Positions 13,357-37,001 of a DNA stretch of 38,277 nucleotides are shown in pieces. The translations under genes were made by a program, and so were the position numbers. The first letter of the stretch is position 1; each line of letters opens with the position of its first letter. This DNA comes from a virus. The DNA is taken from the IMG/VR virus record IMGVR_UViG_3300042868_003903, positions 1-38,277 of that record; one strand, given 5' to 3'. Under the pieces are notes generated by a model. That model was not told the DNA's origin. It worked only from the letters and a program-made list of their open reading frames with translations, and ran no database searches.

Positions 13357-15687
13357 TCAGTCGTCAGCAGTGCGCCGGAACGCGTGAACGGTCGCAGTGT
13401 GCGCCGTCTCCGCAGCGTCCCGGGCCTCGGTTTTCGTGCCGCGCCAGTCTGGTGACAGCCAGATGTGGCGGCGTGTGCCATAGCGCTTCGTCTTCACTAG
13501 GCCGACGTCAACCCACCCGCACTCTGACAGCGCGTGCAGCAGTGCGGGGACGTTCAGACGGACATTCTGTGGCGCGTGATCCTGCAGCCGATCCACGACC
13601 GCTTGCCACGGGCCGCAGGCGAACCCGTGCCGGAACTCCAGCGCTTTCTTTTCGATGCGCTCGATGATCCACGATTCTGCCGACGTGCGCGCACTGCCGA
13701 CCATGATCGACTTCGCATCGGTCCACGGCGGGGTCGCTGCCGGGTTGAATCGGCTCACATCACGCTGCCGCAGGTATGCCGCGCCAGCTTGCAACCCACC
13801 GGCTTTGAAATAGCTCCACAGGGCAAGCGAATCCTCCTCGCGCATCCTCGGGGCATCTGTCCACGTCACCCACCAGCGCCGATCCTCTGATGGGATCGCA
13901 ATCGCGTCCCTATAGTTCGTCATGCCGATGACGAGCGCCTGATTTAGGACCGATATGGGATGCTGGCCCTTTCTCTGCACGGTCAGCAGTTCCGGCGGTG
14001 CGGCCAGAATTGGCTTTAGCCGGTTTTCCAGTGCGCGACGGTCGATGGCTTCGCTCTGCCGCAATTCGTTGAAAATGATGACCTCATTTTCGAGGAAATA
14101 TCCCCAGACCTGCTGCAGTTCTGCCGCCTCGACGCTGGTGCAGTTGGTCTTGTTTTCCCCGCCGATCGCGTACAAGAGCGGTGCTATCATTGAGTCTTTG
14201 CCCGCGCCAGGAACGCCGCCGATGAGCAGCGCGTGATTGATCTTCACGCCAGGGTTTTGAACCTTGAACGCCATCGCGTCGAGCAGGTGCTGCCTCTCCG
14301 CCGGATCCGAGATCAGCCGCTCGACGTGCGCCAGCCACGGGCCAGGATCGCCGCCGACGCAGTCAGGGCGGGCGTTGCGCCACTTGTTCCCATACACCTG
14401 CCCGACGTGCTCGCACAGAACCGCGCGCCCAGGCGCATAGGTAATCCCCTGCAGCATCCTGCCGCGCATCGCCGCGCGGTTTTCGTCGTACGACGTAGCC
14501 GCCTCGACCCGGCGCGCTGCGCCTGACGTACTGGCGTGGATGCTGTGGCACCGGACGTGCCGGTACAGTGCGTTGAACGAGTTTCGCGTGTACTCCACGC
14601 ACTGCTGGATGTCGAAATAGGCATCGTCAGGCACGACGTAGGCGAACCGCTTATGCCACTCCCCGACCTCCAGCAACGACGGGTCGCGCTCGTCTGCTGC
14701 GGCCTGCGCTTGCGCGTGCTCCTCGTTCTGCGGCTCATCCGGCCCCGCAGGTTTCGGCGGCTCGGGTTCCGGTTGCTGCGCGAACACGCTGGTGCGCGGT
14801 GCGATCCAGGCTCGCGCCTCCTGCCACGACGCGAACCCGCTATCCGCAGCGTCCCACCCGTCAGGCATCCCCGTCGGGTCGATGACCTTGACCTCGGGGC
14901 AGTGCGGCGCCAGCATGGCCGCAAGGCGCTGCATCGTCTGGATGCCAGCGTCGTCGGCGTCTGGCCACAGGAGGACTTTGCGCCCGTGGATCGGCTTCCA
15001 GTCGGCGCGGTTGACAGCCTGCCCGCCACCGGGCCAGGTGCAGACGACGTAAGGCCCTGAGATCTGCGCCGCCGCGTCTGCGGCTTTCTCGCCCTCGACG
15101 ACCAACACAGGGTCTGCGCTGCGGGCCTCCAGTTCCTGCAGCCGGTACAGCGGGCGCGGGACGGGCCACTGGCCCATACCCCAGGCCTGCCCGTCATACG
15201 TCCACGGGACGATTTGCTTGCGGGTGTTCGGGAAATCGTAGCGGGCGACGTAGCCGAGCACCTCCCCGTTGCCGTCCCAGTATGTCCAGCGGGCCGACGG
15301 TGCGCCGTATAGCGGGTGGACGCACTCGCAGTCCGCTGCCGCCTCGGGGACGGGCGTGACGACGGTTCTGGGGGGTTTCGTCGGTTTCGCTGGTCGCGCT
15401 GGCGCTGCCGCCGCGCTGCCGTCGTCTAGCTCGCGGTAGGCCTCGGCCATCGTCAGTTCGTGGATCGCAGCGTACAGGTCGATGAGGTCCCCGCCCCTGT
15501 CACTGGTGGCGAAGTCGGCCCACCGGCCCGACAAGAGGTTGACACTGAGCGAGGCGCCCTCGCCGCCGCTGAGATCACCGCAGACCCATTCGTGGCCCCG
15601 TCGCCTGCCGCCGGGCAGCCACTGGGGGACGAGGGTTTCGCTGCCCAAGAGGAGGCGCTGCGCGAGCGCGTTGAAGTCGAGTTTCAT
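13357..15687 (-). CDS. TOPRIM primase-helicase
   Basis: A 776-residue replication protein. The N-terminal region (about 28-75, GHEWVCGDLSGGEGASLSVN, then GGDLIDLYA) resembles the zinc-binding primase domain. A TOPRIM domain follows at about 192-275 with VLVVEGEKAADAA and the acidic pair WPDADDAG. After a Pro/Glu linker (about 300-335), the C-terminal half is an SF3/DUF5906-type helicase with Walker A GGVPGAGKDS at about 490-499 and Walker B VIIFNE at about 536-541. It would unwind and prime phage DNA, relying on the host polymerase since none is encoded. The ATG at 15687 overlaps the transporter stop as ATGA; an upstream extension would run through the transporter gene. Confidence 0.88.
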   Translation of the reverse strand: MKLDFNALAQRLLLGSETLVPQWLPGGRRRGHEWVCGDLSGGEGASLSVNLLSGRWADFATSDRGGDLIDLYAAIHELTMAEAYRELDDGSAAAAPARPAKPTKPPRTVVTPVPEAAADCECVHPLYGAPSARWTYWDGNGEVLGYVARYDFPNTRKQIVPWTYDGQAWGMGQWPVPRPLYRLQELEARSADPVLVVEGEKAADAAAQISGPYVVCTWPGGGQAVNRADWKPIHGRKVLLWPDADDAGIQTMQRLAAMLAPHCPEVKVIDPTGMPDGWDAADSGFASWQEARAWIAPRTSVFAQQPEPEPPKPAGPDEPQNEEHAQAQAAADERDPSLLEVGEWHKRFAYVVPDDAYFDIQQCVEYTRNSFNALYRHVRCHSIHASTSGAARRVEAATSYDENRAAMRGRMLQGITYAPGRAVLCEHVGQVYGNKWRNARPDCVGGDPGPWLAHVERLISDPAERQHLLDAMAFKVQNPGVKINHALLIGGVPGAGKDSMIAPLLYAIGGENKTNCTSVEAAELQQVWGYFLENEVIIFNELRQSEAIDRRALENRLKPILAAPPELLTVQRKGQHPISVLNQALVIGMTNYRDAIAIPSEDRRWWVTWTDAPRMREEDSLALWSYFKAGGLQAGAAYLRQRDVSRFNPAATPPWTDAKSIMVGSARTSAESWIIERIEKKALEFRHGFACGPWQAVVDRLQDHAPQNVRLNVPALLHALSECGWVDVGLVKTKRYGTRRHIWLSPDWRGTKTEARDAAETAHTATVHAFRRTADD

Positions 15688-16166
15688 GCGAGCACCTGCT
15701 TGCGCGACAAAATCCACGCCCACACTGCGCCACCAGCGACCTTCGCTACGAACTGCGCCAGCACGATCTGAGGCATCAGCGCGCCAAACGCCAGCGTTGG
15801 AAAAACCAGAGAATCTACTGCGGCACCCGCAACGTTTGATCCATTTGCACGGAACATCCAACTGCCGCGCAGACGCGCAAAGGTTGCCCAGTCCACCACT
15901 GCTGCCGCAGTGAAGGCCGCAGACGACGCGATGGCGATCATGCCTGCCGTAGGGTTGAGCAGGTAGGTCAATCCGCCAGTTCCGGCAATCAGTGTGCCCA
16001 TTTGCCATATTCGCAGGCGAACGTGGAGCCAGTCGCGCAGTGCCAGGTCGAGCCCGATCAACACGAAAGCATTGATCGGTGAAACCCACGGGCCGAATGC
16101 GGCCACGGATAGGTTGGCAAGGATCATTGCCGCAGCGTAGGCGGCGATTGCAATCATCATCGTCAT
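15684..16166 (-). CDS. VUT-family (YhhQ-like) queuosine-precursor transporter
   Basis: A 160-residue integral membrane protein with about five hydrophobic spans. Family-typical motifs are ILANLSVAAFGPWVSPINAF near the N-terminus, FVLIGLDLALRDWLH, the NPTAGMIAIASSAAFTAAAV span, FRANGSNVAGAAVDSLVFPT, and VAKVAGGAVWAWI. VUT/YhhQ proteins import preQ0/preQ1-type 7-deazaguanine precursors across the inner membrane. The ATG at 16166 overlaps the stop of the TGT/DpdA-like gene as ATGA, with GGAG 5 bases before it, so transporter and base-exchange enzyme are co-translated. It is slightly shorter than bacterial YhhQ (about 220), yet the conserved core is present. Confidence 0.85.
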   Translation of the reverse strand: MTMMIAIAAYAAAMILANLSVAAFGPWVSPINAFVLIGLDLALRDWLHVRLRIWQMGTLIAGTGGLTYLLNPTAGMIAIASSAAFTAAAVVDWATFARLRGSWMFRANGSNVAGAAVDSLVFPTLAFGALMPQIVLAQFVAKVAGGAVWAWILSRKQVLA

Positions 16167-16840
16167 ATCAACTCCACTTGTAGTGCCCGTGGCTTCCAAG
16201 CCGTGGGCGGGTTGCTCTTGTTGATGCGCTTGGCCATACAGCCTGCGCACTGCGTCTGCTCTGCGTGATGCAAAGCCACATTGGTGCTGTCTGCGCTAGA
16301 CAGCGGCCACTGCTCGGTTCCCTGCGCCAGCATCCGCATCCCGTGCGTCCACGGTAGGCGTGCGTGCGCCTTGACCAATGCGTTGAAAGCCTCATCCATC
16401 CTAGCCGCCCATGCGGGCGATCCAACCTGCCAGTACTGCCCCGAGGAACCCAGTGCAACCCGGCCCCAGTCATCCACCAGTTCCAGCAGGTAGTCAATCG
16501 GCAGTCCGAGGTGCCACACCGGCATCCCAAGTGCGCGAGGAAATGGCCAGGTCTTGACCATTTCGCGTTGCTGCTCGACCGACCCGTCGATCACATCGGG
16601 CACCACGCCCCAGTGCGGGTGCGCCAGCAGCGGGTCGACCCACTCATAGAACCCATGCAAGTCAAACTCCGCGCCGCGGGTCTTGGCAGAGAACGCGCCG
16701 TTGTCCAGCATCAGAGACTGCCCGATGCGCAGGCAGGTTTTGAGGTTGTCGGGGCGCGCAAAGCTCACGCAGAAGTGTTGGCCTGCCATCGATTCCAGCG
16801 CCCAATTAGGCGTGATTGGCGTGCCGTGGTAGTGAATCAC
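16163..16840 (-). CDS. dpdA: TGT/DpdA-like DNA 7-deazaguanine base-exchange enzyme
   Basis: A 225-residue protein with the TIM-barrel pattern of tRNA-guanine transglycosylases. LMLDNGAFS (D46) corresponds to the TGT motif DSGGFQ. VVPDVIDG (D82, D85) follows. GSSGQYWQVGS at 131-141 corresponds to the TGT glycine loop. MRMLAQG then SSADSTN (D184) corresponds to the MGVG and nucleophile-Asp region. A Cys pair CAGC (198-201) with nearby His191/192 could bind zinc. It is much shorter than tRNA TGT (about 375), as expected for phage DpdA-type proteins that act on DNA. The GTG at 16840 overlaps the VRR-NUC stop as GTGA. The enzyme would swap guanine for a deazaguanine in phage DNA. Sequence-level assignment is by motif; substrate is inferred from the adjacent transporter. 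Confidence 0.75.
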   Translation of the reverse strand: MIHYHGTPITPNWALESMAGQHFCVSFARPDNLKTCLRIGQSLMLDNGAFSAKTRGAEFDLHGFYEWVDPLLAHPHWGVVPDVIDGSVEQQREMVKTWPFPRALGMPVWHLGLPIDYLLELVDDWGRVALGSSGQYWQVGSPAWAARMDEAFNALVKAHARLPWTHGMRMLAQGTEQWPLSSADSTNVALHHAEQTQCAGCMAKRINKSNPPTAWKPRALQVELI

Positions 16841-17331
16841 GCCTCCCCCAGCAGCCTGACGGCATCGTCCACACTGCGGCAAACCCCAGCCACGCCACCC
16901 GCAGCGCGGATCGACGCGAGGAACTCCTCCTGCCCCGGGCGCATCCTGCCGGTGCGGCTCTTGACCTCGATGGCCAGCGTGCGACCGTCTTTCAGCGTGC
17001 CCATGATGTCTGACATCCCGCGCGCGGTGTTCGCCCGGATATAGCGCACGCTGCCGTCGCGGTTGCGCTCTTGGAACGTGCCGGAGTTCTGGCGCCAGCA
17101 CATTGCCACGCGCGGGTGCCGGTGCAGCATCTGAATGATCGCCCGCAGGATCTCGGCCTCTGACGGCTGGCGCGGCTCGTCTGGCGCAGGCTCGCGCCTC
17201 GGGCGCTTCTTGGGTTCCGGCGGAATCGGCAACTCCCGCGCGGGCTTGCCGCTGAGTGCGGCGTACAGCGCCTCGGTCTGCTGGTTGCGGAGCATCTGCT
17301 CTCGCAGGGTTCGTCTGCCTCTTTCGGTCAT
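16837..17331 (-). CDS. VRR-NUC domain nuclease
   Basis: A 164-residue protein. The N-terminal 55 residues are a basic, Pro-rich extension. The VRR-NUC (PD-(D/E)xK) fold follows: SEAEILRAI at about 57-65, GMSDIMG with catalytic D108, IEVKS with E122 and K124, and PGQEEFLASI with Q134. Phage VRR-NUC proteins are structure-specific or Holliday-junction-like nucleases used in replication and recombination. The ATG at 17331 overlaps the upstream stop as ATGA, and its own stop overlaps the DpdA-like start. All key residues are present, so activity is likely. Confidence 0.87.
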   Translation of the reverse strand: MTERGRRTLREQMLRNQQTEALYAALSGKPARELPIPPEPKKRPRREPAPDEPRQPSEAEILRAIIQMLHRHPRVAMCWRQNSGTFQERNRDGSVRYIRANTARGMSDIMGTLKDGRTLAIEVKSRTGRMRPGQEEFLASIRAAGGVAGVCRSVDDAVRLLGEA

Positions 17332-18092
17332 GCTGCCAACCTCATAAAAACGCTGGACCAAACGTCCTGCGGATCGTTGCGCCAGGTCCGGTGCGTCCAA
17401 ATCTGCGCCACGTTGCCCTTGGGCAGCCCGCTCATCCGCACGGCTTCCATCAGGCTGTTGCAGGCCCTGATGCGGCGCACCATCTCCCAGGTGATCTTCG
17501 ACCGAGACTGCCTGACGAGCGCCATCTTCGCGCTCCAGGCTTCGCCGCCCGGGCGCCTGCCGGCCGCGATTGCTTGGTTTTGCGTCACCGATCTGGTGAC
17601 CATCGCAACGTGCGCCGGGTTGCAGCAGCCGCGCGTCCCGCAGGTGCTGGATGCCACCATGTTAGCGGGGGGCTCCGCGTCGTTCATTTCCCGCCAGATC
17701 AGCCTGCGCAGATAGGCACGCTTGCCCTTGTAGTACACGACAGGCGCGCCGGATTCCGTCACTACGCCGCGCCAGATCAGGCAGTCGCCCTCGCCCTCGA
17801 CGGTGTTGTTTTCGAGTCGGGTCTTCAGCCACTCGCTGAGGTTCCGCTTCCGGCCCTTTTCCTGCTTTTCCTTCGCCGCCACCTGCGGCGGCTCCATGTC
17901 CGTCGGCATCCACACCGACATGCGCCCATTGTTCTCGACGCGCACATAGCCCGCGTAACGCATGTTTTGCAGCGACGAGCGCACCGTCTTTTTGGGCATG
18001 TCGCCCAAGTGCTGCATCAGCATCGAAAGCGTTGCCGGCTGCTCGCGCCGCACGACCTCCAGCACCCGCTGGTTCGTTCGCCCCAGTTTCAC
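17328..18092 (-). CDS. Winged-helix plus HNH-like protein, first gene of the leftward operon
   Basis: A 254-residue protein. Residues about 1-65 form a winged helix (VLEVVRREQPATLSMLMQHL, then KKTVRSSLQNMRYAGYVRV). The middle (about 100-175) resembles an HNH_3-type endonuclease: CLIWRGVV, a YLRRLIWREMN helix and CGTRGCCNPAHVAMVTRS. The expected first His of the HNH core is replaced (NMVASSTCG), so it may be a catalytically weak DNA-binding relic. The C-terminus has SKITWEMVRRIRAC and a second helix-turn-helix-like end. The GTG at 18092 with AGGAG is preferred over a TTG at 18122. It may regulate this operon. Confidence 0.65.
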   Translation of the reverse strand: MKLGRTNQRVLEVVRREQPATLSMLMQHLGDMPKKTVRSSLQNMRYAGYVRVENNGRMSVWMPTDMEPPQVAAKEKQEKGRKRNLSEWLKTRLENNTVEGEGDCLIWRGVVTESGAPVVYYKGKRAYLRRLIWREMNDAEPPANMVASSTCGTRGCCNPAHVAMVTRSVTQNQAIAAGRRPGGEAWSAKMALVRQSRSKITWEMVRRIRACNSLMEAVRMSGLPKGNVAQIWTHRTWRNDPQDVWSSVFMRLAA

Positions 18093-18248
18093 TGTCCACT
18101 CCTGTTGTTGTCGGGGGCGCAATCATGCCATGCTTGCCGAGGCACGCAAAGCCCGCGTGAAACAGTGGGTCATTGAGTGAAGTTGCGTTGACTTGCGTAG
18201 TCGATCGTGGCAACATTCGCCCGTCCCCACACAACACAGGAGCAGACG
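18093..18248. promoter_or_regulatory. Divergent intergenic region between replication and recombination operons
   Basis: These 156 bases separate two divergent operons and must drive both. On the + strand TTGACT (about 18190) is followed 17 bases later by CAACAT, a poor -10 match. No strong promoter or operator symmetry was found by eye. Confidence 0.35.
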
Positions 18249-35824: not shown

Positions 35825-36495
35825 AGGTCGCCTCCGGGCCTGCGGCGCAGGTACATGTGATAGTTGCCGGGATACGCTTTGTCGGCGCTGTGGTGCGTGA
35901 TGTCCACATCCGGAATCAGCCAGATTGAGCCGCCGCAGTCGTTCCAGTTGCGGCTGAAGGCGTAGTCCTCGCCGTACCAGATGCCTTTGTGCGCGCCGTG
36001 GTTGAATAGGTCAACGTGCGGCTTGTGCGCCTTGCCGTACATAAGGTGCGGGTACGCGCGCATGAACTTCTCGATTGCCGCCTCGGTCACGCGCAAAAAC
36101 CCTGCGGGCACCCACTCTGCGTGGATAGCGCCGTCTGCCAGGCGCACGATGGGATGCCCACCCGCGTCGGTGAACAGGCAGCCCATGTAGTCTTCCTCGT
36201 CCCGCTTGAAGCGATACGTTCCAGCCACAACCTCGCCCTCCGTCTGGATGAGCTTCAGCAGCGCTTCCGGCGGGAACGATACGTCGTGGTCAAGGAAAAT
36301 GATCTGATCCGCGCCCGCATCCAGTGCCTTGCGCAGCATGACGTTGCGCGCTTGGCTGATATACGGGTTGCCGACTTCCATCACCATCTGGTGCGTGATG
36401 CCTGCTGCATCCAGTGCCGGTACAGCGGCCTCTATGGCCTCCAGAAGCGCTGAATGCGGGCGGGTGAGGGTAGGCACACACAAGACGACTTTCAT
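35806..36495 (-). CDS. Glycosyltransferase, GT-A (family 2-like)
   Basis: A 229-residue enzyme-like protein. It has the GT-A start MKVVLCVPTLTRPHSALLEA, then ISQARNVMLRKALDAGADQI and IIFLDHDVSFPPEALLKLI, where the DHD corresponds to the DxD metal/nucleotide-sugar site at about residue 74. GEVVAGTYRFKRDEEDYMGC and VPAGFLRVTEAAIEKF also fit GT-A proteins of phages. Encoded inside the head operon, it could glycosylate a virion protein or a host surface molecule. It overlaps the methyltransferase as ATGA. Confidence 0.82.
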   Translation of the reverse strand: MKVVLCVPTLTRPHSALLEAIEAAVPALDAAGITHQMVMEVGNPYISQARNVMLRKALDAGADQIIFLDHDVSFPPEALLKLIQTEGEVVAGTYRFKRDEEDYMGCLFTDAGGHPIVRLADGAIHAEWVPAGFLRVTEAAIEKFMRAYPHLMYGKAHKPHVDLFNHGAHKGIWYGEDYAFSRNWNDCGGSIWLIPDVDITHHSADKAYPGNYHMYLRRRPGGDLCPSST

Positions 36496-37001
36496 TGCGT
36501 CACGGGCCTTTGTGCGGTAATCATCAGTTGGTGGTTGTTAGACGGGCCGGCGTGGCGGATTTCAAACCCGGCGTGCTCGACAAAGTCGATCAGCGTCTTG
36601 CGGACGAACCCGTACTTGTGCGCCATGTACGGATTGCTCTGCACCAGTCTGGCCATGCCGTAATACATGTCCAGCCCCGTGACCGGGCCTGCTGGCGATT
36701 CGTAGACGACGGTGTTGTCGGGCTTGATGCCCTCCAGATCCGGCACTATGGCGATGAGGAACCCACCCGGTATCAACACGCGGTGCAGTTCTTTCAACGC
36801 TTGCACGATTTCGTGCGGCGGCATGTGTTCCAGCACATGCGAACAGTATGCGATGTGGTATTGGCCAATGTCCCCCATGTCGGTCATGGGAGCAACAAAG
36901 TCAGGAGAGACGCCCGGATCAATGTCCAGACGAGTCTCCTGACCCCGTATCCACTCGGGAAGCGGCTCTCGGCCGCATCCCGCATGAAGCACCTTGATCA
37001 C
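36492..37001 (-). CDS. SAM-dependent methyltransferase (class I)
   Basis: A 169-residue protein with a Rossmann-type SAM site: VLHAGCGREPLPEWIRGQ (motif I), TRLDIDPGVSPDFVAPM (acidic loop), YHIAYCSHVLEHMPPHEIVQ and LKELHRVLIPGGFLIAIVPD (motif near the fifth strand). This is the Methyltransf_11 pattern acting on small molecules, glycans or proteins rather than on DNA bases (no DPPY/NPPF motif). The GTG at 37001 overlaps the upstream stop as GTGA. Coupled to the glycosyltransferase, suggesting that the two modify the same product. Confidence 0.85.
   Translation of the reverse strand: MIKVLHAGCGREPLPEWIRGQETRLDIDPGVSPDFVAPMTDMGDIGQYHIAYCSHVLEHMPPHEIVQALKELHRVLIPGGFLIAIVPDLEGIKPDNTVVYESPAGPVTGLDMYYGMARLVQSNPYMAHKYGFVRKTLIDFVEHAGFEIRHAGPSNNHQLMITAQRPVTQ

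Follow-up and report, generated by a model that had tools for sequence, protein, structure and literature searches.

The phage genome analysed here carries a gene for a small DpdA-like base exchanger (dpdA) that overlaps a gene for a Vut_1-type membrane protein (VUT), in the midst of replication genes. The dpdA-VUT pair is confirmed as a real arrangement and not a chance one. It is a widespread unit, the recurrence of which we have not seen published, though an earlier description is possible. By its profile and by a conserved histidine, the enzyme appears to be DpdA-type and not tRNA-TGT-type, and both lines of comparison support this. The best explanation of the pair, which we consider probable, is that the two genes form a unit for modifying DNA with 7-deazaguanine by salvage alone, expressed together with the replication genes of the phage. 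We infer that its target is DNA, that preQ0 is the substrate base, that VUT transports this base and that the modification is protective. In this phage, DpdA modification would take a compact form that works by salvage alone.

The pair within its operon and genome

The window, that is, the whole stretch of 38,277 nucleotides analysed, has a 127-bp direct repeat at both ends. This repeat fits a circular or permuted genome of 38,150 bp that is very probably complete; an earlier sequence-only reading had already called the genome complete and circular. Besides the pair and its neighbours, the window encodes the proteins of a tailed phage (portal, terminase, scaffold, major head protein, head closure and DNA ejection protein), together with RecT-like and exonuclease genes; no phage tRNA genes were found in it. 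A small SAM methyltransferase is encoded amid the structural genes (36492-37001, minus strand; Methyltransf_11, E 9.7e-8), and a protein in which an HNH nuclease is joined with a helix-turn-helix-like domain is encoded just upstream of the VRR-NUC gene (17328-18122, minus strand). The operon runs on the minus strand in the order VRR-NUC, dpdA, VUT and primase-like protein:

16837..17400 (-): VRR-NUC nuclease, upstream neighbour of dpdA (Pfam VRR_NUC, E 9.3e-9)
16163..16840 (-): DpdA-like base exchanger, 225 aa, GTG start (PHROG 887, AF2 barrel, 9g DpdA profile match)
16163..16166 (-): ATGA overlap, dpdA stop over VUT start
15684..16166 (-): Vut_1/COG1738-type membrane protein, 160 aa, putative 7-deazaguanine importer (Pfam Vut_1, PHROG 4899)
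13357..15687 (-): primase/helicase-like replication protein, downstream neighbour of VUT (PHROG DNA primase, E 1.6e-22)

All three junctions are 4-base stop/start overlaps: GTGA between VRR-NUC and dpdA, and ATGA both between dpdA and VUT and between VUT and the primase gene. Such overlaps usually accompany translational coupling. The dpdA-VUT overlap and the primase/VRR-NUC setting of the pair had both been described from the sequence and are borne out, the setting by the Pfam and PHROG assignments of the neighbours. A Shine-Dalgarno scan performed no better than chance, and a DNA-level search for the operon in phage records gave no match. In comparison with locus L003, both genes show purifying selection (dN 0.063 and dS 0.69 for dpdA; dN 0.14 and dS 1.57 for VUT).

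The VUT/YhhQ-type partner proposed for the enzyme is upheld by a Pfam Vut_1 domain above the gathering score (E 1.4e-10, 42.2 bits against a cut-off of 27.2), and the product belongs to PHROG 4899 (E 1.1e-36), though it scores under the NCBIfam equivalog cut-offs for YhhQ (TIGR00697, 21 against 50.95 bits; PRK11212, 19.4 against 252). Simple hydropathy finds about 5 hydrophobic segments in it, and one homologue is annotated with six helices. COG1738 members are known transporters of Q precursors (PMC5372724, PMC11130926). FolE, QueD/PTPS, QueC, radical-SAM domains (which cover QueE), QueF and DpdC gave no match in the window, with models that do detect their targets in control genomes. The reported lack of FolE, QueD, QueE and QueC thus holds, and QueF and DpdC are likewise absent.

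Fold and active site of the DpdA-like enzyme

The dpdA product belongs to PHROG 887, 'queuine tRNA-ribosyltransferase' (E 1.5e-44), and its GTG start is backed by homologues beginning at the same residue. Searches of Pfam (to E 1) and NCBIfam gave no match. Relatives occur in 102 records of the phage collection, all of them below 60% identity. An AF2 model made from 70 diverse relatives (pLDDT 91.5, pTM 0.89) is a minimal (beta-alpha)8 barrel with its eight strands in barrel order; it replaced a poor earlier model from 28 close relatives (pLDDT 61.8). When Foldseek's own PDB candidates were re-ranked with VIA-align, 50 of the 50 entries listed belonged to the TGT family (Z 13.2-14.7, about 200-216 residues). 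The best were Cap10 in complex with CdnD (Z 14.7) and an archaeal TGT (Z 14.0), and Zymomonas TGT reached Z about 13.4 with an rmsd of about 3.0-3.2 A over about 203 residues. Foldseek on its own listed only generic TIM barrels from the PDB, at weak E-values (0.015 and above); among viral models, it matched ones bearing the name queuine tRNA-ribosyltransferase, at best with E 7e-9. Sequence searches of the PDB yielded nothing credible.

Three codons were assigned by alignment to residues of the characterized enzymes:

16703..16705 (-): D46 (in DNGAFS), counterpart of 9g D72 and E. coli TGT D89 (motif alignment)
16343..16345 (-): H166, counterpart of 9g DpdA H196, absent from E. coli TGT
16289..16291 (-): D184 (in ADSTN), counterpart of 9g D215 and of the E. 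coli TGT nucleophile D264

Residues H5, G6, P8, D46, D82, H110, G131, H166, R169, D184 and S185 are invariant among 70 relatives, and D46, H110, H166 and D184 align by sequence with 9g D72, H141, H196 and D215. The Asp pair D46/D184 named in the sequence-only reading is thus confirmed. Its TGT/DpdA-like identity is also borne out, by PHROG 887, by the profile match to 9g DpdA and by the TGT-family structural matches, and the structural comparison that it had suggested returned the TGT fold, both aspartates being placed by sequence alignment. Of the refuting outcomes that it had named, none of those open to computation was observed. Its list of TGT-type motifs needs one qualification: DNGAFS, VPDVIDG, GSSGQYWQVG, ADSTN and a CxxC (CAGC) are all present, but the CxxC is kept only in close relatives and is lost in others, such as those in Pam5 and RHph_X2_30.

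The enzyme shares its fold and the Asp pair with tRNA TGT (PF01702), but differs from it in profile, zinc motif and an extra histidine. The family profile scored 48 bits against 9g DpdA (hmmsearch, E 8.7e-17 in a two-sequence search) and -0.9 bits against E. coli TGT, and the hhalign probability was 96.4% for 9g DpdA versus 0.4% for E. coli TGT. PF01702, on which E. coli TGT scores 560 bits, is not matched by the DpdA-like protein. The tRNA-TGT zinc site CxCxxC...H was not found in it, the single CxxC being the only such motif. At the corresponding motif E. coli TGT reads MGVG, without a histidine, in a comparison of motifs rather than of superposed coordinates; the conserved DpdA histidine (9g H196) is missing in DpdA2 (PMC6884629). 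With 9g DpdA the window enzyme has in common the TGT-like core and the counterparts of D72, H196 and D215, although the two differ in length (225 aa versus 317 aa).

Recurrence of the pair in phages and bacteria

The recurrence of the dpdA-VUT pair is the part worth reporting. Loci were collected via dpdA, with divergent relatives added for the cluster counts, so the counts measure the share of dpdA loci with VUT nearby. VUT is beside dpdA in 72 of the 79 close IMG/VR loci where the neighbour is visible, and it lies within 1.5 kb of dpdA in 47/74 clusters at 80% identity and in 12/17 at 60% identity. In these clusters VUT is always on the dpdA strand, and both gene orders occur. Within the 74-cluster set, some dpdA clusters have no VUT neighbour, notably the enterobacterial ones around MED16. 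Dozens of IMG/VR contigs carry the pair, as do the sequenced isolates PEAT2, Pam5, RHph_N3_2, Opt-719 and AB3P2. In Pectobacterium PEAT2, Pseudanabaena Pam5 and Rhizobium RHph_N3_2, dpdA and VUT adjoin, as in the window, or have one small gene between them, and the PEAT2 pair is likewise beside a primase, but in a different gene order. No study of the pair as a unit in these three phages was found in the texts consulted, and YhhQ homologues were reported to show no correlation with any phage group (Hutinet 2019, PMC6884629). A dpdA relative with the same score as the Salmonella-phage ones is also found at 202-894 of OR850331.1 (hit H9), a 1,719-bp 'Staphylococcus phage' record that is possibly mislabelled.

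Counted in reverse, 21 phage records match the VUT product and at least 14 of them also have the dpdA family alongside, which was not seen in the 7 mEp021-type records among the 21. In Enterobacteria phage mEp021 (L085, 3929-5196) the PHROG 4899 VUT homologue overlaps a PHROG 757 DNA methyltransferase gene instead of dpdA, and it might feed another DNA modification. We considered whether this adjoining gene, annotated as a cytosine methyltransferase, is a hidden DpdA and rejected the idea (PHROG 757, hhalign probability 0.6%).

Phage 9g encodes FolE, QueD, QueE-like and Gat-QueC proteins beside dpdA for its own precursor, whereas the window phage has none of these genes. In this it resembles the dpdA-only 'group 3' phages 7-11 and MED16 (Hutinet 2019), which have the same enzyme family without synthesis genes. 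The MED16 protein is 37% identical to the window enzyme; the Salmonella 7-11 protein is annotated alike and was matched via its Salmonella relatives at about 33%. Unlike the window phage, Pantoea MED16 and Salmonella 7-11 have no VUT adjoining dpdA. Vid5 and EC151 combine a Vut_1-type preQ0/preQ1 transporter with dpdA, much as here, but also have the synthesis genes that are absent here. Salvage through a preQ0 transporter was proposed for phage Vid5 in 2018 (PMC6266253) and for EC151 in 2021 (PMC8310023), and dpdA-only phages were described in 2019 (PMC6884629). Since these, together with dADG in dpdA-only relatives, are published and the pair occurs in isolates, the novelty claimed in the sequence-only reading was overstated.

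The published levels of modification vary widely. DNA of MED16 and Salmonella 7-11, which have dpdA without synthesis genes, contains 354 and 50 dADG per 10^6 nt (PMC8306585, PMC6884629), so that about 0.13% and about 0.02% of G is modified, against about 30% in CAjan or Rosebush. Mycobacteriophage Orion, with dpdA alone, has no modification. On an E. coli plasmid, 9g DpdA alone produced 790 dPreQ0 per 10^6 nt from host preQ0 (PMC6884629), compared with about 45,000 dG+ when Gat-QueC was added. For phages with the dpdA-VUT pair, no published modification measurement was found.

The nearest cellular dpdA relatives (64-69%) are in Betaproteobacteria, and both have a VUT neighbour. Most bacterial genomes with dpdA relatives have QueC and can therefore make preQ0, and 17 of 18 have a tRNA TGT match. 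Full QueC is missing in 3/7 bacterial genomes with the pair versus 0/10 without VUT (one-sided Fisher p about 0.05), a trend that is only suggestive because the three QueC-lacking genomes are MAGs. Pairs without a convincing full-length QueC were seen in Devosia, Rhizobium and Rhizobiales MAGs (L277, L282 and L283). A bacterial Vut_1 gene lies just beyond queC in two genomes (G003:C1 and G010:C52), which ties the transporter family to the pathway there. In Caulobacter phage DMCA (L088, 2705-3726), a 98-aa QueD/PTPS-like gene with a marginal Pfam score overlaps a dpdA relative.

Proposed salvage and its alternatives

We hypothesize that VUT provides the infected cell with more of a 7-deazaguanine base, most likely preQ0, with preQ1 or queuine possible. 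The DpdA-like barrel would then exchange guanine in phage DNA for the imported base by the TGT mechanism, with D184 as the nucleophile on C1' and D46 as acid/base, probably blunting host restriction. The salvage proposal made from the sequence is supported in part, by the TGT fold, the Asp pair, the DpdA-type profile and histidine, the Vut_1 partner, the lack of synthesis genes and the recurrent, strongly conserved pairing. We also count for it the replication neighbours, the occurrence of the pair in isolates, the dADG found in MED16 and 7-11 despite their lack of synthesis genes, and the QueD-like gene that overlaps the DMCA relative. The low dPreQ0 from 9g DpdA alone suggests that precursor supply may limit the reaction, leaving a role for a transporter. 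If precursor delivery does limit DpdA, the importer would fill, in salvage, the place of a synthesis enzyme. Low dADG in MED16 and 7-11, which have no VUT neighbour, fits supply limitation and also fits host-made modification. What we count against salvage is the very low modification in these two phages, part of which could come from host enzymes, its lack in Orion, and a VUT score below the YhhQ equivalog cut-offs. As most of the bacteria with relatives have QueC, import is not obviously needed there.

The same fold could serve tRNA or another RNA instead of DNA, the transporter feeding a Q-type top-up that favours phage translation. The database label of the family and the very little DNA modification in tested relatives agree with this. 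We nevertheless judge it unlikely: PF01702 is unmatched and there is no profile similarity to E. coli TGT, the TGT-type zinc motif is not common to the family, and the DpdA histidine is present. Moreover, the operon around the gene is one for DNA replication, the phage has no tRNA genes, and nearly all the bacterial genomes with relatives already have a tRNA TGT. That VUT has a role apart from DpdA (another substrate or membrane alteration), the pairing reflecting shared operon ancestry, seems to us quite improbable. The mEp021 homologue next to a methyltransferase gene and the unreached equivalog cut-offs speak for it, but the linkage is kept in divergent dpdA clusters and in either gene order, a pattern that descent from a single operon would not readily produce, and COG1738 has known Q-precursor transporters.

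In a counter-defence reading, the barrel would act, like Cap10 of type IV CBASS, on a host defence protein conjugated to a deazaguanine. Cap10 belongs to the TGT family but has been reshaped so that it binds a protein with a modified N-terminus (PMC11996544). Cap10 is also the best single structural match, but by a Z difference of less than 1 from the archaeal TGT, so that the two are tied. The sequence is nearer to the DNA-acting DpdA, and an importer would be no help in removing a conjugate; we give this very little credence. Low modification in relatives might also mean that the genes are degenerate or non-functional passengers, which the strong purifying selection on both genes and the invariant catalytic residues make highly improbable.

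Returning to DNA modification by salvage, a bolder and rather doubtful version is that modification depends on base from the surroundings or from lysed neighbours, which would make restriction resistance nutrient-dependent and non-genetic, with a base that is perhaps not preQ0. If true, a base other than preQ0 would yield a nucleoside in DNA that the standards employed to date have missed.

Synthesis genes are lacking in the largest group of dpdA phages described so far, and the origin of its precursor was left open (PMC6884629). The conserved dpdA-VUT pair is a concrete candidate answer, namely that the phage carries its own importer. A well-conserved 225-aa enzyme and its putative importer could be moved together into laboratory E. 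coli, for which LC-MS read-outs are published.
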